Source: Asticcacaulis sp. (GTDB lineage: Bacteria > Pseudomonadota > Alphaproteobacteria > Caulobacterales > Caulobacteraceae). Taken from it: a DNA stretch of 38,253 nucleotides. Each line of letters begins with the position of its first letter. The stretch's first letter is position 1. This document shows, piece after piece, positions 1,752 through 12,039 of this stretch. The translations under genes and the position numbers were made by a program. The notes under the pieces were generated by a model that was not told the DNA's origin, searched no databases, and worked only from the letters and a program-made list of their open reading frames with translations. Location of the stretch: positions 1 through 38,253 of the forward strand of contig NZ_JAIXSV010000184.1 of assembly GCF_027484505.1 (NCBI RefSeq), given 5' to 3'.

Positions 1752-3167
1752 TTAGGCGCTTTCAAGCTGCATGAATTGACGGGGATCGGCCACATGACCG
1801 GCAATGGCTGAGGCCGCGGCGGTGGCCGGTGAGGCCAGAACCGTGCGCGAGCCGGGGCCCTGACGGCCTTCGAAATTGCGGTTGGAGGTCGAAACGGCCA
1901 GTTGCCCCGGCAGCACGAAGTCGCCGTTCATGGCAATGCACATGGAGCAGCCCGGCAGACGCCATTCGGCACCGGCTTCGAGGAAGATATTATGCAGGCC
2001 TTCCTTTTCGGCTTCGACGCGCACCCATTCCGAACCCGGCACGATCAGGGCGCGCACGCCCGGCGCGACCTTGCGGCCCTTCATGATAGCGGCAGCGGCG
2101 CGCAGGTCGGCCATGCGGCCATTGGTGCACGAACCGATGAAGACCACATCGACCTTCTCCACCTCGCGGGCCTCGCCGCCGGTGAAGCCCATATATTTCA
2201 GCGCGCGTTCTTCGTCTTCGTTGGCGGCCACCGGCACGCCCCTGACGATGGGCGCACCCTGATCGGGCGAGGTGCCCCAGGTGGCCATCGGCTCGATGGC
2301 CGAACCGTCGATGGTGATTTCCTTGTCGAAGACCGCGCCGTCGTCGGACTTCAGCGTCAGCCACTGGGCGGCGGCTTCGTCGAAGGCCGCGCCTTGCGGC
2401 ACGTATTCGCGGCCGCGCAGCCATTCGACCGTCTTCTGGTCAGGGGCGATCATGCCGCAGCGCGCGCCCGCTTCGATCGACAGGTTGCAGACCGTCATAC
2501 GGCCTTCCATGTCGAGCGCTTCGATGACCGGCCCGGCATATTCGAGCGCGTAGCCCGTGCCACCGGAGAAGCCCAGCGTGTTGATGACGGTCAGCGCCAC
2601 GTCCTTGCCCGTCACGCCCGGTTGCAGCGCGCCGGTGATGTTGATGCGCATGGTCTTCGGCTTACGCTGAGCGAGGCACTGGGTGGCCAGAACGTGGCCG
2701 ACTTCCGACGTGCCGATCCCGAAGGCGATGCAGCCGAAGGCCCCGTGGGTCGAGGTGTGCGAGTCGCCGCAAACGACCGTGAAACCCGGCTGGGTCAGGC
2801 CCATTTCCGGCCCGATGACGTGGACGACGCCGCGGTTTTCGGCGTCATAGCCGAACAGGCGCAGACCATTTTTGGCGGCATTGGCCTCAAGCGTTTCGAC
2901 CTGCTTTTTGGCCTGCGCCGTCACATAGGGGCGGTTGCCGTCGGCGTCGGGGGCCAGAGTCGGGATCGAGTGATCGAGCGTTGCAAAGGTGCGATCGGGA
3001 CGACGTACCTTCAGGCCGCGCGCATCCAGCTCGGAAAAGGCCTGAGGGCTGGTCACCTCATGAACCAGATGCAGGTCGATGTAGAGGACGGCGGGCTTGT
3101 CCGCGCCTTCTTCCTCAACGATGTGGCGTTCCCACACCTTCTCGAACAATGATTTGGGTTTTGACAT
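1752..3167 (-). CDS. leuC: 3-isopropylmalate dehydratase large subunit LeuC
   Basis: LeuC is the [4Fe-4S] aconitase-family catalytic subunit that interconverts 2- and 3-isopropylmalate together with LeuD. The 471-residue product starts [17 protein letters not shown] and has the expected length. Aconitase motifs are clear: [15 protein letters not shown] near residue 130, [11 protein letters not shown] near residue 340 with the first cluster Cys, and [11 protein letters not shown] near residue 405 with the other two. It lies downstream of ilvE after a 118-base spacer with palindromes and upstream of leuD. Confidence 0.97.
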
Positions 3168-3285: not shown

Positions 3286-4212
3286 TTAATTCACGTAGTC
3301 GAGCCAGCCCCACTTGTCTTCGGTCTGGCCATTGAACAGGCCGTGGAAACGGGTCTGAAGCAGCTTGGTGATCGGGCCGGGGCCGTTTTCACGCGTCGGA
3401 ATGTCGTCGATCGTGCGGATCGGCGTGATTTCCGCCGCCGTGCCGGTCATAAACACTTCGTCGGCGAGGTAGAGCATTTCGCGCGGCAGGTCCTGCTCGA
3501 TGATCTCGATGCCCTCTTCGCGGGCGAGCGTCAGCACGGTGTTGCGCGTGATACCGCCCAGAATCGAGGCCGAGACCGGCGGGGTGTAGATCTTGCCACC
3601 CATCATCAGGAACAGGTTCTCACCGGCCCCTTCCGACAGACGACCATCGACGCCGAGGCCCAGACCTTCGACATAGCCCTTCGAGCGCGCCTCGCGGCCG
3701 ATCAGGTAGGACGACAGGTAGTTGCCGCCGGCCTTGGCCATGACGGGGATGGTGTTCGGCGCGGCGCGGTTCCACGAGGAGACGATGACATCGACGCCCT
3801 TGGTCAGGCCTTCGTCACCGAGGTAAGCGCCCCACGGGAAGGCGGCGATAGCGACATCGACGCGGACGTTTTCCGGCTTCGGCGTCACGCCCATGCCGCA
3901 TTCGCCTAGGAAGGCGATGGGGCGCAGATAGGCCGACTTCAGGCCGTTGACGCGCAGGGTTTCCTTACAGGCTTCGTTGATCTGTTGCAGCGTGTAGGGG
4001 ACCGGCATGTGATAGATGCGGGCCGAATCGAGCAGGCGCTGGGTGTGTTCAGTGAGGCGGAATACCGCCGGCCCCTTCGGCGTGTCGTAGGCGCGCACAC
4101 CCTCAAACACCGAGGTGCCATAGTGCAGGGCGTGGGTCATGACGTGGACCTTAGTGTCCTCCCACGCCTTGAGTTCACCGTTGAACCAGATTTTTTCAGC
4201 GAGCGGTTTCAT
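3286..4212 (-). CDS. ilvE: Branched-chain amino acid aminotransferase IlvE
   Basis: IlvE is a PLP-dependent class IV aminotransferase that makes Ile, Val and Leu from their 2-oxo acids using glutamate. The 308-residue protein has the family start KIWFNGELKAWEDTKVHVMTHALHYGTSVFEGVRAY, the PLP-binding Lys in VMAKAGGNYLSSYLIGREA near residue 160, the phosphate-binding EGAGENLFLM, and SILGGITRNTVLTLARE toward the C-terminus. Its ATG lies inside the end of leuA (17-base overlap), so translation is probably coupled. It is the shared last step of all three pathways, which fits its place between the ilv and leu parts of the cluster. Confidence 0.96.
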   Translation of the reverse strand: MKPLAEKIWFNGELKAWEDTKVHVMTHALHYGTSVFEGVRAYDTPKGPAVFRLTEHTQRLLDSARIYHMPVPYTLQQINEACKETLRVNGLKSAYLRPIAFLGECGMGVTPKPENVRVDVAIAAFPWGAYLGDEGLTKGVDVIVSSWNRAAPNTIPVMAKAGGNYLSSYLIGREARSKGYVEGLGLGVDGRLSEGAGENLFLMMGGKIYTPPVSASILGGITRNTVLTLAREEGIEIIEQDLPREMLYLADEVFMTGTAAEITPIRTIDDIPTRENGPGPITKLLQTRFHGLFNGQTEDKWGWLDYVN

Positions 4213-5779
4213 GTTGTTTCTCAGAATTCAGGTTTGAGGCATGAGTCTTCCGGTCGTGCAGGAAGACGTATTTTTCAAAAGCGTCGCACATGGCGCGAAG
4301 CCCGGCCCATACAGGGTCGGGGCCGCGACCACGGCCCCGGTATGCCTCACCCTTAATCTGTAAACTGATTTCTGCAAAGGCCCCGCCGTCGAAGGTGAAC
4401 CCCGACTGGATGATTTCGCAGTCATTGACGCGCGCCTCGATCTGATAGGCGTCCACCAGAGCGCGGAACCCGGCCTCAAAGGCATTGAGCCCCGTGGCCG
4501 TCACCTTCAACGGTTCGCCGTTGTCGCGGAACAGGTCGAGCGTGATCGTCACAAAGTCCTTGGTGACTTCGCTCGACACCTTGAACAGGCGCGCATCGTC
4601 CTTGTCGGCATTGTCGCGCGTGAGCAGCGACATCAGCTCGAACTCGTCGATTTCGCCGATCTCATCGGCCCGGCGCTTGAAGGCGGCGAACAGGTCACCC
4701 AGCGACAGCTCATCAAGGTCGAAGCCCAGCGCCGCCGCCTGCTTGGCGATGGCGTGGCGGCCCGAATGTTTGCCCAGCACCAGATTGGACTTTTCCGCGC
4801 CGACGTCTTCCGGGCGCATGATCTCATAGGTGCGCGCATCGGTCAGCATGCCGTGCTGATGGATGCCCGATTCGTGGGCAAAGGCGTTGCGGCCGACGAC
4901 CGCCTTGTTGCGCATGACGATGGTGCCCGTGGCGCGCGACAAAAGGTGGCTGGCCTTGCTGAGCAGCGGCGTGTTGATGCCGGTGTGCAGCTTGAACAGC
5001 TCAGGCCGCGTGCGCAGGGCCATGACGACTTCTTCCAGCGCCGCATTGCCCGCGCGCTCACCGATGCCGTTGATGGTGACTTCGATCTGACGTGCCCCGG
5101 CTTCGAGGGCGGCCAGCGTATTGGCGACGCCCAGCCCCAGATCGTCGTGATTGTGCGCCGACAGGATGACCTGCGGATGGTCTTTCAGGGCGGCCTTCAG
5201 GTCGCTGAAAATCTGATAGATTTCCTTCGGCGTGGTGTAGCCGACCGTGTCCGGAATATTCAGCGTGCGCGCCCCGGCCTCGGCCGCGGCGATACACACC
5301 TCGTGCAGGAAGTCCTGTTCGGTACGGATGGCGTCTTCGGGCGAGAACTCGACCTCATCGAAAATCGTCGAGGCGTAGCTGACGGCCTTGTGCGCGATTT
5401 CGACCACCTGCTCGCGCGTCTTCTTCAGCTTGGCTGCGCGGTGGATGGGCGAGGTGGCCAGGAAGATGTGGCAGCGCTTGCGCTTGGCCGGCAACAGCGC
5501 GCGGGCGGCGGCGTCGATGTCGGATTCCAGCGCGCGCGACAGTGAGCAGAAGGTGGGGCCAACCACTTCGCGGGCAATGGTGCGGATGGCCTCTTCATCG
5601 CCGGGCGACGAGGCGGCGAAACCGGCTTCGATGACGTCCACGCCCAGATCCTTGAGCGTGTGGGCCAGCATCAGCTTATCCTTGACGCCTAACGAAAAGC
5701 CGGGGGCCTGTTCGCCGTCACGCAGGGTGGTGTCAAAGACGATGACGCGGTTGGGGTCGTTGGGGACAATGGCATTCAT
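4196..5779 (-). CDS. leuA: 2-isopropylmalate synthase LeuA
   Basis: LeuA condenses acetyl-CoA with 2-oxoisovalerate, the committed step of leucine synthesis. The 527-residue protein opens with the TIM-barrel signature VIVFDTTLRDGEQAPGFS near residue 12. It then has the second family signature LSAHNHDDLGLGVANTLAALEAGARQIE near residue 205 (metal-binding HxH) and NAFAHESGIHQHGML near residue 300. The last 130 or so residues form the LeuA regulatory (feedback) domain, including FDGGAFAEISLQIKGEAYRGRG. Citramalate synthase is a relative, but the length and the neighbouring leuBCD favour LeuA. It starts 8 bases after ilvN and overlaps ilvE. Confidence 0.95.
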   Translation of the reverse strand: MNAIVPNDPNRVIVFDTTLRDGEQAPGFSLGVKDKLMLAHTLKDLGVDVIEAGFAASSPGDEEAIRTIAREVVGPTFCSLSRALESDIDAAARALLPAKRKRCHIFLATSPIHRAAKLKKTREQVVEIAHKAVSYASTIFDEVEFSPEDAIRTEQDFLHEVCIAAAEAGARTLNIPDTVGYTTPKEIYQIFSDLKAALKDHPQVILSAHNHDDLGLGVANTLAALEAGARQIEVTINGIGERAGNAALEEVVMALRTRPELFKLHTGINTPLLSKASHLLSRATGTIVMRNKAVVGRNAFAHESGIHQHGMLTDARTYEIMRPEDVGAEKSNLVLGKHSGRHAIAKQAAALGFDLDELSLGDLFAAFKRRADEIGEIDEFELMSLLTRDNADKDDARLFKVSSEVTKDFVTITLDLFRDNGEPLKVTATGLNAFEAGFRALVDAYQIEARVNDCEIIQSGFTFDGGAFAEISLQIKGEAYRGRGRGPDPVWAGLRAMCDAFEKYVFLHDRKTHASNLNSEKQHETAR

Positions 5780-5787
5780 GATGGAAC

Positions 5788-6069
5788 TCAGGCGCTCAGT
5801 TTTTCGGCGTTAGGGCTGACAGTTTGCGCCCGTTCCGGCGCCTGCTCAAGCCGCTTGATGCCATAGAGGCGGTCGATTTGCAGCCCCAGAATGTCGATAT
5901 TGCGGCCCGCATCACGCGGACGCACGCTGACGCTGAGGCCGCGCGTATCGGGGCCCAGATCGTACAGGTCGATCTCATCAATGTGGAAGCCGCGACGCTC
6001 GATCAGGCCCAGCACCCGCAGGAGCGTGCCTTCCAGACGGTCGATCTCAATATGAATCGATTGGCTCAT
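5788..6069 (-). CDS. ilvN: Acetolactate synthase small regulatory subunit, short ACT-only form
   Basis: This is the regulatory subunit that stimulates the IlvB-type catalytic subunit. At 93 residues it holds one ACT domain ([30 protein letters not shown]...) and a short tail. It therefore resembles enterobacterial IlvM (about 87 residues) more than IlvH/IlvN of many alphaproteobacteria (about 160-185 residues), which carry an extra C-terminal domain. The ATG at 6069 overlaps the end of ilvB by 23 bases, typical of coupled synthesis of the two subunits. An ilvM label would be equally defensible. Confidence 0.88.
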
Positions 6070-7735
6070 CCCAGCGCTCCTCCATCATTTCCGCGTTCGA
6101 CGCGCCCGGCGGCACCAGCGGCCAGACGTTTTCGCGCGGGTCGATCAACACATGCAGCAGGGTCGGGGCATCGGCGGCCAGAAGCCGGTCGATGGCACCT
6201 TCGACCTCATGGCGCTGGGTGATGCGGAACGCACTCAGGCCAAACGCCTTGGCGACCTCGACAAAGTCCGGATTATCGGACAGGTCGATTTCGCTGTAAT
6301 TTTCTTCGTAGAACAGTTCCTGCCACTGACGCACCAGCCCCAGCGACGAATTGTCGAGCAGGACGATCTTCAGATTGATGCCGTAGCGCCGCAGCGTCGC
6401 CATCTCCTGAATATTCATCATGAAACTGCCGTCGCCGGAGACGGTGACGACGTGGTGGTCGGGCAGGCCCAGCTTGGCCCCCATGCCGGCGGGCAGGCCA
6501 TAGCCCATCGCGCCGGAACCGCCGGAGGTCAGGTGGGCGCGGTTCTGCTCAAACTCGCAATGCTGCGCCACCCACATCTGATGCTGGCCCACATCGCAGG
6601 CGACAATGAACTTCTTGCCCGCCTTTTCCGACAGCGACTTGAGCAGGGCCGGGGCATAGACGCCCTTGCCCGGCGCATCGTACTTAAAGCGGTGCTGCCA
6701 CTTATTGGCCCTGTTGAGCTTCACCCAGTCCGAAATGTCGGGCATGGTTGGGCGCAGGGCCGGTAAGGCCAGTTTCAGGTCACCCAGAATGGCGACATCG
6801 GCGCGGCGGTTCTTGTGGAACTCGGCCGGGTCGATGTCGAAATGGATGACCTTGGCGTGCGGGGCAAAGGCCGACAGCTTGCCCGTAGCGCGGTCATCGA
6901 AACGCGCGCCGACGGCGATCAGCAGGTCGGTTTCCTGCACGGCCATGTTCCCGGCGCGGGTGCCGTGCATCCCCAGCATCCCCAGGTGCAGGTCGTGATA
7001 GGTCGAAACCGTCCCCAGCCCTTTCAGGGTCGAAACAAAGGGGATGCCGGTGCGCTCGACAAAGTCGCGCATCTCGGCATCGGCATCGGCCATGTGTACG
7101 CCACCGCCGATGTACAGCAGCGGCTTTTTGGCCTGTTCGATCAGGGCTTTCGCGGCCTCAATGACGTCGGCCTTCGGCGCAGCCGGCGTCCAGGCGGGCA
7201 GTTCACCCATTTCGGAGGCTTCGACGAAGCTGGCGGCGACGTCCTTCGGGATATCGACCAGCACCGGGCCGGGGCGGCCTTCCTTGGCGATGGCAAAGGC
7301 GCGGGCGAGGATGGCCGGGATTTGTGCGGCGTCGCGCACCAGCCACGAGTGTTTGACGACCGGCAGGGTCAGGCCCAGAAAGTCCACTTCCTGAAAGCCA
7401 TCGGTGCCCATCAGGTGCGTGGCGACCTGACCGGTGATAAAGACGACGGGGACCGAGTCCATATAGGCATTGGCGATGCCGGTGATCAGATTGGTCGCAC
7501 CGGGGCCGGAGGTGGCCATGCACACGCCGACGCGGCCTGTGGCGCGCGCATAGGAATCAGCGGCGAACGACGCCCCCTGTTCGTGGCGCACCAGAATGTG
7601 ACGCAGGCCTGATCCAGCCAGCGCGTCATAGATCGGCATGATGGCGCCGCCCGGATAACCGAACAGCACGTCTACGCCCAGCGCCTTCAGCGTTGAGATG
7701 ACGAGTTGCGCGCCGGTCGGTTTATTGGTGGGCAT
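6047..7735 (-). CDS. ilvB: Acetolactate synthase large (catalytic) subunit
   Basis: This is a thiamine-diphosphate enzyme making acetolactate or acetohydroxybutyrate, the first common step of Val/Leu and Ile synthesis. The 562-residue protein shows the order N-terminal PYR domain ([18 protein letters not shown]; the catalytic Glu in [19 protein letters not shown] near residue 50), central FAD-type domain ([11 protein letters not shown]..., [14 protein letters not shown]), and C-terminal TPP domain with the [29 protein letters not shown] segment near residue 430. Because its partner is the short IlvM-like subunit, it may be closer to IlvG. It follows ilvC after 171 bases containing a large palindrome. 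Confidence 0.95.
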
Positions 7736-7798
7736 TGTAAATTACTCGGTGTTGGGGTGCGGATTGACCGCCTGGTCTTGTGGTTCTGGGCTGAAAGC

Positions 7799-7901
7799 CA
7801 CCCCACCACCGCTCGCTACGCTCACGGTCCCCCTCCCCGCCAGCGGGGAGGGGGACCGCACGACGCTTGCGGAGCAAGCGAGATGCGGGGGTGGGGTGTC
7901 C
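7799..7901. repeat. Nested perfect palindrome between ilvC and ilvB
   Basis: The core is a perfect 16-base inverted repeat with a two-base loop: CGGTCCCCCTCCCCGC at 7825-7840 and its complement at 7843-7858. Around it are matching outer arms, CCACCCCACCACCGCTCGC on the left and the roughly complementary GCGAGATGCGGGGGTGGGG on the right. The element is the same style as the leuC-leuD spacer. It would make a long stem in the ilvC-ilvB transcript. No T-run follows it on the minus strand. Confidence 0.85.
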
Positions 7902-7906
7902 TGCTT

Positions 7907-8908
7907 TTAGCCGTTACCCTTTTGGTTCAGCCACGACATGCGCGAACGCAGGTCACGACCGACGGTTTCGATCGGATGCTCAAGGTCCTGACGCATCAGG
8001 GCGTTGTAGCGCGGACGACCGGCCATGTTTTCGAGGATCCAGTCGCGCGCGAAGTCACCCGACTGAATGTCGTTGAGCACTTCTTCCATGCGCTCGCGGG
8101 TTTCTTCGTTGATGATGCGCGGACCCGACACGAGGTCGCCGTACTTGCAGGTTTCCGACACGAAGGAGTGCATCTTTTCGAGGCCGCCTTCATACAGCAG
8201 ATCGACGATCAGCTTCAGTTCGTGCAGCACTTCGAAATAGGCGATTTCCGGACGGTAACCGGCATTGGTCAGCGTCTCAAAGCCCATCAGGATCAGTTCC
8301 GACGTACCGCCGCACAGAACGGCCTGTTCACCGAACAGGTCGGTTTCGGTTTCTTCGCGGAACGAGGTTTCGATCACGCCGCCGACGGTGCCGCCGATGC
8401 CGCGGGCATAGCCCAGCGCCTTGCGCGCCGCCTGACCGGTGACGTCACGATCCACGGCGAACAGCGACGGCACGCCGCGGCCACGCTGATATTCACGACG
8501 CACCAGGTCGCCCGGACCCTTCGGCGCGACGAGGATGACGTCGAGGTCTTCACGGGCGGTGACGCGGCCATAGAGGACCGAGAAGCCGTGCGCGAACAGG
8601 AGCGCCGCACCCTTCGGGGCGTAGGGCTCGATGTCGTTCTTGTAGATGTCGGCGTGCGACATGTCGGGCGTCAGAAGCGCGATGATGGTGGCGTCCTTCA
8701 CGGCGTCCTTGATTTCCGCCGTGGCGAGGCCATCGGCGGTCGCCTTGGTGTGACCCGCACCGCCCGCGCGCACGCCGACGATCACGTCAGCGCCCGACTC
8801 TTTCAGGTTCTGAGCGTGGGCGCGGCCTTGCGAGCCGTAGCCGATAATGGCGATGCGTTCGCCCTTCAGGCTGTCCGGCGAAACGTCGTCATTGGTATAG
8901 ATTTTCAC
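7907..8908 (-). CDS. ilvC: Ketol-acid reductoisomerase IlvC (class I)
   Basis: IlvC rearranges and reduces acetolactate to dihydroxyisovalerate (and the Ile-pathway equivalent) with Mg2+ and NAD(P)H. The 333-residue protein has the Rossmann loop ERIAIIGYGSQGRAHAQNLKESG near residue 17, LLFAHGFSV near residue 100, VAPKGPGDLVRREY near residue 125, the metal-site segment EETETDLFGEQAVLCGG near residue 185, and FEVLHELKLIVDLLYEGG near residue 220. Length matches the short class I form. Some loop residues (GSQGRAHA for the common GSQGHAHA, VRAGGAGHTKA) differ from the commonest versions and may bear on cofactor preference. It starts 62 bases after the IlvD-C-like gene. Confidence 0.96.
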   Translation of the reverse strand: MKIYTNDDVSPDSLKGERIAIIGYGSQGRAHAQNLKESGADVIVGVRAGGAGHTKATADGLATAEIKDAVKDATIIALLTPDMSHADIYKNDIEPYAPKGAALLFAHGFSVLYGRVTAREDLDVILVAPKGPGDLVRREYQRGRGVPSLFAVDRDVTGQAARKALGYARGIGGTVGGVIETSFREETETDLFGEQAVLCGGTSELILMGFETLTNAGYRPEIAYFEVLHELKLIVDLLYEGGLEKMHSFVSETCKYGDLVSGPRIINEETRERMEEVLNDIQSGDFARDWILENMAGRPRYNALMRQDLEHPIETVGRDLRSRMSWLNQKGNG

Positions 8909-8970
8909 TTGGGAGGCTCCATTGAGTGCCGGCTTTGCCGGTCGCTTTGAAAGGAAAAAGGAAAAGGGGT

Positions 8971-9519
8971 TCAGGCCTGAGCGGCGTCGGCCTCGGCCAT
9001 GAGGGCCGCGTACTTGCCCATCGGGGCAAAGCCGTTCTTCACCTTCGCACCGCGCGGCCCGTCCGCCCGGCGCGCCACCATGTCGGCGTCGATGTCGAGG
9101 CGGCGGTTTTTGATGTCGATGGTGATGGTGTCGAAATTCTGGACGTAGCGGATCGCCTTGCCGACGTGGCCGATGACGATTCCCTCTCTTGGGCCTTCCG
9201 ATGCGGCGGCAAAGCGCCCGTTGGAGATCAGGCTGATATCGCGCAGACCGGCCTCGGCGATGGCCCCGAAGATGGCCGTCATTTCCGCATCGTCCGCCGC
9301 CGCGATGACGACGGCTTCACCGTGGGCGACGCGGCCTTGCTGAATGGCGGCGATGGCGTCGGATTCCATGGCGAAGACGCGGGCGCGGGCTTCGTGCGGG
9401 TCGCGCTCGAAACCGCCGCCGGTCATCACGCAGCCTTCCGGCGACAGCGAACCGTGCAGAATCACGAAGTTCGAAGCGGGGAGAGCGGCCGGGTCAATGA
9501 TGCGAGCGTGAGCGTTCAT
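8971..9519 (-). CDS. Standalone IlvD/Edd C-terminal-domain-like protein, probably non-catalytic
   Basis: The 182-residue product aligns by eye with the C-terminal (swivel) domain of dihydroxy-acid dehydratase. VILHGSLSPEGCVM matches Ilv[41 protein letters not shown] matches [42 protein letters not shown] matches [24 protein letters not shown] matches [11 protein letters not shown], and FDTITIDIKNRRLDI matches [15 protein letters not shown]. The Cys-rich Fe-S domain of IlvD is absent. The [11 protein letters not shown] loop is replaced by AAADDAEM, and the GRFSG loop has lost the Ser that acts as catalytic base in IlvD. It is therefore very unlikely to be an enzyme. It is the first gene after the ilv attenuator, so it is expressed with the pathway. 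A role as IlvD partner or metabolite sensor is only a guess. The ATG at 9519 was chosen as the first in frame; no strong ribosome site is visible. Confidence 0.85.
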   Translation of the reverse strand: MNAHARIIDPAALPASNFVILHGSLSPEGCVMTGGGFERDPHEARARVFAMESDAIAAIQQGRVAHGEAVVIAAADDAEMTAIFGAIAEAGLRDISLISNGRFAAASEGPREGIVIGHVGKAIRYVQNFDTITIDIKNRRLDIDADMVARRADGPRGAKVKNGFAPMGKYAALMAEADAAQA

Positions 9520-9584
9520 GGCGAAATCTCGGTTTTCAGGGGTTTACGCGGGATACTGAGGTTGGTCAGGCAGCAGGCATGTAC

Positions 9585-9613
9585 AAAAAAGCCCGCTCTG
9601 GTCAGGGAGCGGG
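9585..9613 (-). terminator. Attenuator terminator of the ilv-leu operon
   Basis: On the minus strand the sequence reads CCCGCTC, an 8-base loop, GAGCGGG, C, then six T residues. This is a perfect 7-base stem plus U-run, a classic Rho-independent terminator. It lies 39 bases after the stop codon of the Ile/Val/Leu-rich leader peptide and about 65 bases before the first structural gene, the position expected for a transcription attenuator. Confidence 0.9.
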
Positions 9614-9656
9614 AGGATGGTTATTCCTCATTAGCGGGTTTCAGACCTGCGCTACC
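9605..9656 (-). promoter_or_regulatory. Candidate antiterminator / alternative hairpins of the ilv leader
   Basis: The segment at 9650-9656, which contains the leader stop codon (9652-9654), is complementary at 6 of 7 positions to 9605-9611, part of the 5' arm of the terminator. Pairing these would prevent the terminator. A ribosome reaching the stop codon would cover the first segment and let the terminator form; one stalled earlier on Ile/Val/Leu codons would leave it free. A competing local hairpin (9633-9639 with 9645-9653) and a GAGGA/TCCTC stem (9613-9617 with 9625-9629) are also possible. The pairing scheme is my inference by eye; RNA folding was not run. Confidence 0.5.
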
Positions 9657-9828
9657 ACTCCGTGATCATAGGGCGTACAAGTACGCCTACGATGAGTAGG
9701 TTAATCAGGGCTACAATAATGGCAGACGCAGCAGCAGACAGGTTCAGGGCAGCGCCTTGAACGTCCATGCGGGCAGCGATGGCAACAGCCTTGCGCACCT
9801 TAAGCGTCTCCATTCGTCGGGCCACCAT
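9652..9828 (-). CDS. Ile/Val/Leu-rich leader peptide of the ilv-leu operon
   Basis: A small ORF ends with TAG at 9652. Its C-terminal part reads SAIIVALINLLIVGVLVRPMITEW, here split as SAIIVALINLL then IVGVLVRPMITEW: 12 of the 15 residues from IIV to VLV are Ile, Val or Leu. Many of these codons (four GTA, three ATT, CTA, CTT) are rare in the surrounding genes, which use GTC/GTG, ATC and CTG. This is as expected of a leader whose translation rate reports charged tRNA levels. Three in-frame ATGs are possible: 9828 (58 residues), 9813 (53) and 9768 (38). None has a clear ribosome site. The first two fit best with a promoter whose start site would be near 9838, possibly nearly leaderless. A GGCGTAC/GTACGCC hairpin at 9672-9687 overlaps the Val-Leu-Val codons and could be a pause site. 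Confidence 0.85.
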   Translation of the reverse strand: MVARRMETLKVRKAVAIAARMDVQGAALNLSAAASAIIVALINLLIVGVLVRPMITEW

Positions 9829-9844
9829 GGCCGCGTCGTGAGAT

Positions 9845-9874
9845 CATATAGACTGAAACCTTTACCGATTGCAA
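9845..9874 (-). promoter_or_regulatory. Putative promoter of the ilv-leu operon
   Basis: On the minus strand a TTGCAA -35-like box (9869-9874) and a TATATG -10-like box (9845-9850) are 18 bases apart. They would start transcription near 9838, just upstream of the leader peptide. The boxes are reasonable but not perfect matches to a housekeeping sigma consensus. Just beyond lies an A/T-rich tract (about 9875-9975), unusual in this GC-rich window, that separates this promoter from the divergent ilvD side and could be a regulator-binding or bending region. Confidence 0.5.
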
Positions 9875-10026
9875 AGGCAAAATTGAAAAAAAATTTCTTT
9901 AGGGGGCGAATGACGGAATTTATCAGGTGAAACTTGATGAAAAAATGCCATATTTTGAAAATATTTTTTTAGTATACGGTTTCTGTGAAAAAATTACCCC
10001 ACAACCACCGGGCTTTGCGCAACAGT

Positions 10027-10075
10027 TTCGCAGGAGCAAAAAAATGCCGGATGCGCCTGCGAAGGTTTGCGGGCG
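10027..10075 (+). promoter_or_regulatory. Mutually exclusive hairpins around the start of the Cys-rich upstream ORF
   Basis: TTCGCAGG at 10027-10034 is perfectly complementary to CCTGCGAA at 10056-10063. The resulting stem would bury the AGGAG ribosome site (10032-10036) and put the ATG (10044) in the loop. A second stem, CGCCTGC at 10054-10060 with GCGGGCG at 10069-10075 (7 pairs, one G-U), uses the same middle segment, so only one of the two can form. This is the architecture of a translational or ribosome-controlled switch. It was seen by eye; folding energies were not computed. Confidence 0.5.
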
Positions 10076-10166
10076 TCTGAGGTGCTGTTGCAATTCGCCT
10101 TGTTCGTTTTATATGGCCGCACGTCACACGACCATCCGTGCCTGTTTCCCCCCGCACTGCCTCTGA
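10044..10166 (+). CDS. Cys-rich 40-residue upstream ORF ahead of ilvD
   Basis: A 40-residue ORF starts at an ATG preceded by a good AGGAG ribosome site. It has seven Cys residues, including a CCC triplet ([15 protein letters not shown], later RACFPPHCL). Its TGA at 10164-10166 overlaps the ribosome site of ilvD (GAGG 10165-10168), so a ribosome finishing it would stand at the ilvD start (10174). No family is recognised. Because IlvD is an iron-sulfur enzyme whose cluster assembly draws on cysteine sulfur, a leader whose translation senses Cys-tRNA, or whose product binds metal, would make sense, but that is inference. A longer in-frame reading from 9927 lacks a ribosome site and seems less likely. 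Confidence 0.5.
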
Positions 10167-10173
10167 GGTTCCC

Positions 10174-12039
10174 ATGCCCGCCTATCGCTCACGCACCACG
10201 ACTTTCGGCCGCAATATGGCGGGCGCACGGGCGCTTTGGCGGGCGACCGGCATGACCGATGCCGACTTCTCCAAGCCGATCATTGCCGTGGTCAATTCCT
10301 TCACGCAGTTCGTGCCCGGCCACGTCCACCTGAAGGACCTGGGCCAGATGGTGGCGCGCGAAATCGAAAAGGCCGGCGGTGTCGCCAAGGAGTTCAACAC
10401 CATCGCCGTCGATGACGGGATCGCCATGGGCCACGGCGGTATGCTCTATTCGCTGCCGTCGCGCGACCTGATCGCCGACAGCGTGGAATATATGGTCAAT
10501 GCCCATTGTGCCGACGCCATGGTCTGCATTTCCAACTGCGACAAGATCACGCCGGGGATGCTGATGGCCGCCATGCGCCTCAACATCCCCTGCATCTTCG
10601 TGTCTGGCGGACCGATGGAGGCCGGCAAGGTGGTGTGGCCGGACAAGGACGGCGTGCAGCGCACCCACGCGCTCGATCTGGTCGATGCCATGGTGCAGGC
10701 CGCCGACGATTCGATCTCGGATGAGCAGGTCAAGGCCGTCGAAGAGGCCGCCTGTCCGACCTGCGGTTCCTGCTCCGGCATGTTCACCGCCAATTCGATG
10801 AACTGCCTGACCGAGGCTTTGGGGCTGTCTTTGCCGGGCAATGGCACGACTCTGGCCACCCATGCCGACCGCAAGGCGTTGTTCTGCGAAGCGGGACGTC
10901 TGATCGTCGAAAATACGCGCCGTTATTATGAGACGGACGACGCCTCGGTCCTGCCGCGCTCGATCGCCACGTTTGAGGCCTTTGAAAACGCCATTCGCCT
11001 CGATATCGCCATGGGCGGTTCGACCAACACCGTGCTGCACCTGCTGGCGGCGGCGCAGGAGGCGGGGGTCAACTTCACTATGCAGGATATCGACCGCCTG
11101 TCGCGCACCACGCCGTGCCTGTGCAAGGTGGCCCCGGCCACGTCGAGCGTGCACATCGAAGACGTGCACCGCGCCGGGGGCATTGTCGGCATTCTGGGCG
11201 AACTGCATCGCGGCGGCATGTTGCACGGCGAAGTGCCGACCGTGCATGCCCCGACCCTCGCTTCGGCCATCGCCCACTGGGACATTAAGCAGTCGAACGA
11301 TGCGCGCGTGGCCACCTTCTTCAAAGCGGCACCGGGTGGGGTGCGCACGACGGTCGCCTTCTCTCAGGAGCGCCGCTGGGACGAGCTGGACTCAAACCGT
11401 CAGACGGGCGTCATCCGCTCGGTCGAGCACGCCTTTACCAAGGATGGCGGTCTGGCCGTGCTGTACGGCAATATCGCCGAAAACGGCTGCATCGTGAAGA
11501 CGGCCGGCGTTGATGAGGAAATCTGGCGCTTCACGGGCAAGGCGCGCGTGTTCGAGTCGCAGGAAGACGCCACGCACGGCATTCTCAACAATCAGGTGCA
11601 GCCGGGCGAAGTGGTCATCATCCGCTACGAAGGGCCGCGCGGCGGGCCGGGGATGCAGGAAATGCTCTACCCCACCTCCTATCTGAAATCGAAGGGGCTG
11701 GGCAAGAAATGCGCGCTCCTGACCGACGGGCGTTTCTCCGGCGGCACCTCGGGCCTGTCGATCGGTCACGCCTCACCCGAAGCGGCGCAGGGCGGTCTGA
11801 TCGCGCTGGTCGAAGACGGCGACACGATCGAAATCAACATCCCGGAACGCACGATTAAGCTGGCGGTTTCCGATACCGTGATCGCTGAGCGCCGTGCGAA
11901 GGAAGAGGCGCGCGGCGCCGACGCCTATACGCCGAAAAACCGCGAGCGTTACGTTTCGGCGGCGCTTCAGGCCTATGCGGCCATGGTCACCAGCGCTGAC
12001 ACCGGCGCGGTGCGCGATGTGAGTTTGCTGAGGAAGTAA
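10174..12039 (+). CDS. ilvD: Dihydroxy-acid dehydratase IlvD
   Basis: IlvD dehydrates 2,3-dihydroxy-isovalerate and -methylvalerate, the common third step of Val/Leu and Ile synthesis. I chose the ATG at 10174 (621 residues, [22 protein letters not shown]), which matches E. coli IlvD and has GAGG 5 bases upstream; the frame is open further 5'. Cluster and metal motifs are [24 protein letters not shown] near residue 120 and [18 protein letters not shown] near residue 195. C-terminal motifs [11 protein letters not shown] and [12 protein letters not shown] (with the catalytic Ser) are intact. The sequence is of the E. coli, oxygen-sensitive [4Fe-4S] group by resemblance. It is transcribed divergently from the rest of the pathway, after a Cys-rich upstream ORF. 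Confidence 0.97.

Follow-up and report, generated by a model that had tools for sequence, protein, structure and literature searches.

Enzymes of the IlvD/Edd family combine an N-terminal domain, in which three cysteines bind a [2Fe-2S] cluster, with a C-terminal domain supplying a serine that acts as base (Ser480 in the L-arabinonate dehydratase of Rhizobium), and the cavity housing the active site is found between these domains and at the dimer interface (PMC9795676). The dihydroxy-acid dehydratases (IlvD) of the NF002068/PRK00911 type, with the solved relatives 6ovt, 6nte and 5ym0, share their C-terminal domain, collinear throughout, with a 182-amino-acid protein from Asticcacaulis that we here term X, and in 11 of 20 loci read outside this genus the gene of the full enzyme occupies the operon slot that X holds in Asticcacaulis. 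X differs from these enzymes in lacking the N-terminal Fe-S domain, the EGPxGGPGM loop and, in 21 of 23 orthologs, the catalytic serine.

Several other small proteins invite comparison. The isopropylmalate dehydratase small subunit LeuD and the small subunit of aconitase X are stand-alone swivel-type domains and fold kin. Like X, they are small stand-alone products in a hydro-lyase pathway, with leuD located in the same operon. They pair, however, with a catalytic large subunit, whereas no partner gene of that kind exists for X in 25 genomes; no LeuD family member appears among the profile matches of the window protein and its orthologs, and the Foldseek match of the X model to the aconitase X chain 7cnr is very weak (E 0.63). 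The small subunit of acetohydroxyacid synthase (AHAS; IlvN/IlvH/IlvM) resembles X as a small, non-catalytic gene of the operon with, in the case of ilvM, an overlapping dN/dS range, but ilvM diverges half as fast, and the subunit is an ACT-domain protein of other fold and origin rather than the remnant of an enzyme. In Escherichia coli, the small ORF ilvX sits directly behind the ilvL attenuator, as X sits behind its leader, but is far shorter and is not known to be related to X. Among the papers listed in searches of the open-access literature, with subscription papers mostly outside the search, neither an IlvD C-domain protein that stands alone nor a non-catalytic IlvD subunit is described. 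X is new within the known IlvD/Edd family and not a new kind of system.

Protein X and the ilv-leu operon

The DNA analyzed, henceforth the window, is a stretch of 38,253 nucleotides from Asticcacaulis sp. (contig NZ_JAIXSV010000184.1). X is encoded on its reverse strand at 8971–9519 by an open reading frame with an ATG start and an in-frame stop a short distance upstream. The sole Pfam match of X at E ≤ 1 is the IlvD/Edd C-terminal (β-barrel) domain ILV_EDD_C (PF24877; 73.9 bits at a cut-off of 27.7, E 1.4e-20), with residues 11–177 aligned to profile positions 9–187 of 191. The same domain is the only one matched in profile searches of all 23 X orthologs, and the N-terminal Fe-S domain (PF00920) is absent from the window protein and the orthologs in Pfam searches. 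A single BLASTP comparison with the IlvD encoded next door gave 27% identity across the IlvD C-domain (E 7e-13), and the best matches in a sequence search of the PDB are solved IlvD structures (6ovt, E 6.9e-19). An AlphaFold2 model computed from 43 alignment rows reached a mean pLDDT of 75.8, and every one of its 25 Foldseek hits at E ≤ 0.001 carries the title of a dehydratase (dihydroxyacid, sugar-acid, 6-phosphogluconate or Fe-S-dependent); we take all 25 to be IlvD/Edd family members. Because IlvD C-domains were among the alignment rows, this fold match does not count as evidence separate from the sequence match; with that dependence, the model supports an IlvD/Edd C-domain fold for X. In the window copy, residues 109–112 (window 9184–9195) form a GPRE insertion, within ASEGPREGIV, that the other 22 aligned orthologs all lack at this place.

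X heads an operon that continues on the reverse strand with ilvC (ketol-acid reductoisomerase, 7907–8908), 62 nt downstream of X, and with the catalytic subunit of an ilvG-type acetolactate synthase (6047–7735; NF006524, acetolactate synthase 2). A 93-amino-acid ORF at 5788–6069, without an NCBIfam match at 1e-8, is presumably an ilvM-like AHAS small subunit, a name that we assign from its position. It is followed by leuA (2-isopropylmalate synthase, 4196–5779), ilvE (branched-chain aminotransferase, 3286–4212), leuC (isopropylmalate dehydratase large subunit, 1752–3167) and leuD (small subunit, 1007–1597; 196 amino acids from an inner ATG), all on the reverse strand. Transcribed divergently from the operon is a full-length ilvD (10174–12039, forward strand) of the NF009103 subfamily (profile match 1169.7 bits), presumed to encode the catalytic dihydroxy-acid dehydratase.

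Upstream of X, positions 9652–9813 of the reverse strand encode an Ile/Leu/Val-rich leader peptide (METLK...SAIIVALINLLIVGVLVRPMITEW, then a stop; an alternative in-frame ATG lies at 9828), whose content of these residues was equalled in 0 of 100 dinucleotide shuffles. A predicted terminator-like hairpin followed by CTTTTTT (9592–9613, reverse strand) separates the leader from X. The predicted minimum-energy fold of this region is an alternative pairing and not the terminator-like hairpin, an Rfam scan of 5500–10300 gave no match at E ≤ 1, and the two terminator-like sites of the region compare with a shuffle mean of 1.8, a count not beyond chance, which leaves the place of the hairpin behind the leader as the argument. 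Together, the leader and the hairpin with its alternative pairing (9592–9828) suggest transcription attenuation. A leader of this type precedes X in 23 of 23 loci, with 11–14 Ile, Leu or Val among the last 25 residues, matched by at most 4 of 100 shuffles.

These results bear out much of a preliminary description that had been made from the window sequence. It had presented X as a C-domain-only IlvD protein without an Fe-S domain, placed it first in the ilv-leu operon behind an attenuator-like leader, and proposed a profile search against the IlvD/Edd family and a structure prediction, in which a missing IlvD fold would have spoken against it; the single matched profile, the predicted fold, and the leader and hairpin all agree with it. 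The distance between X and ilvD, given there as 1.2 kb, is in fact about 0.65 kb from start to start (9519 to 10174). Further genes lie in the three longer intervals that were read: at L057 a transposase-like ORF (10019–11134, reverse strand; by eye) lies between the two genes, with a gap of 3.15 kb, and an esterase-like gene (326–339 amino acids, by eye) is found there in all three, at L039 (8435–9439), L042 (5899–6879) and L057 (8791–9810).

Active-site residues and selection in Asticcacaulis

In IlvD/Edd enzymes, the glutamate of the EGPxGGPGM loop is a magnesium ligand. This loop is missing from the window X, and the column of the catalytic serine holds alanine. Residue columns were read from two alignments comprising 23 X proteins and 20 IlvDs from outside the genus. 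The serine is kept in two of the 23 X proteins (L047 and L055) and the loop glutamate in two others (L039 and L052), versus 20 of 20 outside IlvDs in each case; GGPGM occurs in 0 of 23 versus 20 of 20, and no X ortholog retains both serine and glutamate. The claim that the catalytic residues were lost therefore stands for the window protein and, as regards GGPGM, for every ortholog, but two exceptions each apply to the serine and the glutamate. Four positions (G23, G29, D130 and D135) are invariant across all 43 rows. H22 and F37 are each present in 23 of 23 X proteins versus 1 and 0 of the 20 outside IlvDs, respectively, and such X-specific columns are few. Judged by its sequence, X has retained the IlvD fold and lost the chemistry, with a few columns under a constraint of their own.

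A C-only X gene was found in all 25 Asticcacaulis genomes, in each of them directly upstream of ilvC (22 loci, two more loci and the window). Substitution rates, obtained with a purpose-written counting script for 21 hand-chosen, non-independent ortholog pairs, gave dN/dS values for X of 0.026–0.258 in 20 pairs and 0.485 in one. In the same pairs ilvM ranged from 0.00 to 0.34, overlapping X, and ilvC was below X in 21 of 21. Mean pairwise protein distances over 21 genomes were 0.825 for X, 0.129 for ilvC, 0.177 for ilvG, 0.153 for ilvD and 0.409 for ilvM, so that the divergence of X is roughly 4.7- to 6.4-fold that of ilvG, ilvD and ilvC and twice that of ilvM. The partial correlation of X distances with those of ilvD, given ilvG, was 0.39, a figure with no null behind it on which we place no weight. 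Purifying selection on the X protein is clear, while its sequence is not tightly held, and its fast evolution would equally be expected of a gene under loose constraint or in slow decay. Given its presence upstream of ilvC in 25 of 25 genomes and the low dN/dS in 20 of 21 pairs, X is not a pseudogene; the absence or degradation in close relatives that the preliminary description had named as a sign of a pseudogene fragment was not seen, and the survey of gene position that it had proposed likewise came out in favor of a conserved location. The ORF gap between X and ilvC is 17–113 nt in 19 of 22 loci, and the three negative gaps probably reflect overlong ilvC starts; tight translational coupling is therefore not general. 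In genome G119, translation reveals an in-frame stop upstream of X, so that a reading of the open frame as 578 amino acids, against 232 in two other searches, is taken to be an artefact.

Parentage of the operon gene

Subfamily profiles separate X from the IlvD encoded beside it. The window X scores 84.3 bits with NF002068 versus 42.8 bits with NF009103, the family of the neighboring IlvD. NF002068 was the best profile for seven of eight X proteins scanned (the window protein and seven others), the exception being L057 (95.4 bits with TIGR00110, 94.6 with NF002068), and both of these profiles outscore NF009103 in all eight, with none of the scores near the full-length cut-offs. The slot itself was read in 20 hand-picked loci outside the genus, 17 from the same order and three from other classes. 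In 11 of them (9 of 17 and 2 of 3, respectively) a full-length ilvD is immediately 5' of ilvC and shares its strand, and these 11 include all three same-family loci of the sample (L085, L086 and L093; group g3, which we guess to be Brevundimonas). Most of these 11 loci have ilvG and leu genes after ilvC, and three in-slot IlvDs that were scanned all scored best with NF002068. An ILV-rich leader precedes ilvD in eight of the 20 loci (L081, L082, L086, L088, L089, L091, L092 and L093), seven of them in-slot, at a cut of a score of at least 10 with at most 3 of 100 shuffles that was set after the scores had been seen and that excludes L090 (score 8, 3 of 100); none was detected 5' of the same-family operon ilvD of L085. 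In the other nine loci, ilvC does not come next after ilvD. These include L077–L079, whose full-length proteins are the top-scoring relatives of X among the matches listed (41–43% identity) and whose ilvD lies on the other strand, about 4.5–5 kb from ilvC and facing away. In five further same-family loci from other genera (L101, L102, L103, L105 and L106), ilvC is absent from the stretch fetched around ilvD. The full-length state of the slot is hence real but patchy among relatives. In two same-order loci, L097 (8529–10220) and L098 (8909–10565), the operon ilvD frame is divided into two ORFs (238 and 323, and 167 and 452 amino acids), an assembly error or early decay.

No gene for a lone N-domain was found in any of the 25 Asticcacaulis genomes, where ILVD_EDD_N matched four times per genome (five in one), always in a frame of at least 435 amino acids. 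Relics of this domain were likewise missing in tblastn searches with the 20 outside IlvDs against 21 gaps (best E 0.095) and against three further gaps, those of the window, L107 and L108 (best E 0.21), and the three longer X–ilvD gaps that were read hold unrelated genes. Outside the genus, the top relatives of X among the matches listed are full-length IlvDs, and no C-only homolog was established in the listed matches from 149 family and 385 class genomes, 398 phylum genomes (E ≤ 1e-15; E ≤ 1e-40) and 299 order genomes (E ≤ 1e-15). Short-frame matches among those listed include G051 (200 amino acids), G062 (227), G910 (243), G908 (247), G069 (292), G647 (316), G586 (324) and G038 (328), and several of the short-frame matches sit near contig starts; an IlvD piece followed by ilvC is seen in G586 and G647 as well as, with longer frames, in G677 and G691. 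A plasmid search matched 37 records, and among the 10 of 37 listed, nine are annotated ilvD and one carries no annotation. Broken genes were also encountered: the dehydratase frame is split in two in G094 and G109, and G771 has a 116-amino-acid tail on another contig. Three Asticcacaulis genomes (G060, G068 and G770, the last on contig 74) contain a second, shorter IlvD tail elsewhere. The two that were read (L109:4494–4880 and L110:3822–4148, both on the forward strand; 128 and 108 amino acids) show 62% and 67% identity with the NF009103-type ilvD, adjoin molybdenum-hydroxylase-like genes (by eye) and look like recent true fragments, unlike X.

In a tree containing 20 of the 23 X rows (three near-copies were left out), X forms a single clade (support 99/97), so that a single event is enough to account for it. 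X begins at the start of the C-domain, i.e., at a domain boundary. With long branches in play, a tree that groups X and the operon IlvDs of the three same-family loci was rejected (p-AU 0.010), and one placing X beside the NF009103 type was not (p-AU 0.17), so that the tree by itself does not single out a parent. The latter result, together with the collinear 27% identity and the adjacency of the two genes, is what speaks for X as a partial duplicate of the neighboring ilvD, the origin proposed in the preliminary description. That proposal finds no support in the profiles, in which NF002068 outscores NF009103 for each X protein scanned, or in the full ilvD that fills the X slot in 11 of 20 outside loci, and the true NF009103-type fragments of the three genomes above look different; we consider a duplication quite improbable. 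Since the neighboring ilvD belongs to another subfamily and a full ilvD occupies the slot in those 11 loci, the simplest reading is that X is the operon ilvD cut down in place, and this origin, taken by itself, we regard as likely.

Role of X and its significance

X would accordingly represent the remains of the original ilvD of the ilv-leu operon. In the Asticcacaulis ancestor, a second IlvD, the divergent NF009103-type gene, may have taken over the catalytic step, after which the operon ilvD would have lost its entire Fe-S/N-terminal domain in place, leaving the C-terminal domain alone behind the leader and before ilvC. The Mg-binding loop would then have disappeared from the remaining domain, as would the catalytic serine in most species, with the core of the domain kept by purifying selection. 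X would today be co-expressed with the pathway enzymes and act as a non-catalytic partner, most likely one that binds the catalytic IlvD and aids its assembly, protects its cluster or tunes its activity. An IlvD assembly partner, a sensor and a feedback regulator are the possible roles that the preliminary description had put forward. IlvD is favored as the target because it is a homolog of X, because its active site lies at domain and dimer interfaces and because the replacement ilvD adjoins the operon. A partner role in the pathway, considered alone, appears about evenly balanced against its absence. The full statement, that an operon ilvD truncated in place now serves as a non-catalytic partner, most probably of IlvD, is our best explanation, held tentatively and somewhat short of an even chance. 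The more specific notion that the dihydroxy-acid dehydratase of Asticcacaulis is a hetero-oligomer, in which X would be a dedicated subunit that regulates the replacement IlvD or protects its cluster and is dosed via the leader, is doubtful, if conceivable.

Other roles have to be weighed against the same observations. X might be a ligand sensor: its barrel would recognize an acid of the pathway or one of its end products and relay the signal to AHAS, IlvC or another protein, with IlvD not the target. The conserved domain core, the near-exclusive H22 and F37, and the invariable adjacency to ilvC in 25 of 25 genomes fit such a function, but the loop that carries the Mg ligand in the enzymes is gone and X-specific columns are few, and we consider a sensor unlikely. 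A similarly low probability attaches to X as a slowly decaying remnant, kept since a leader-proximal first gene is hard to lose without harming the expression of ilvC and the genes downstream, be it as a spacer or for translation. Its position at the head of the operon, the loss of most catalytic residues, the fast divergence and the one pair with a dN/dS of 0.485 are all as expected of a remnant; the C-only frame is nevertheless intact in every genome, dN/dS is low in 20 of 21 pairs, the domain profile is matched in 23 of 23 orthologs although a spacer has no need of a conserved protein sequence, and the gaps to ilvC speak against general translational coupling. A further possibility is a split dehydratase that is still active, of which X would be the C-terminal half and whose N-domain would be encoded elsewhere. 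It has a parallel within the operon itself, where a dehydratase in two parts, LeuC and LeuD, has its small subunit encoded separately. This possibility is largely refuted, and we rejected it as highly improbable: there is no N-domain-only gene in 25 of 25 genomes, and the active-site residues are lost (GGPGM in 23 of 23 orthologs, the serine in 21 of 23).

An operon ilvD reduced in place and retained as a protein partner stays the reading that we prefer. X offers a good candidate case of an enzyme gene shortened within its operon to a single domain and held by selection once the chemistry was lost, and some relatives still preserve the gene at full length. Should X act on IlvD, the synthesis of valine, leucine and isoleucine would have a new level of control, exerted at the step that depends on an oxygen-sensitive cluster.
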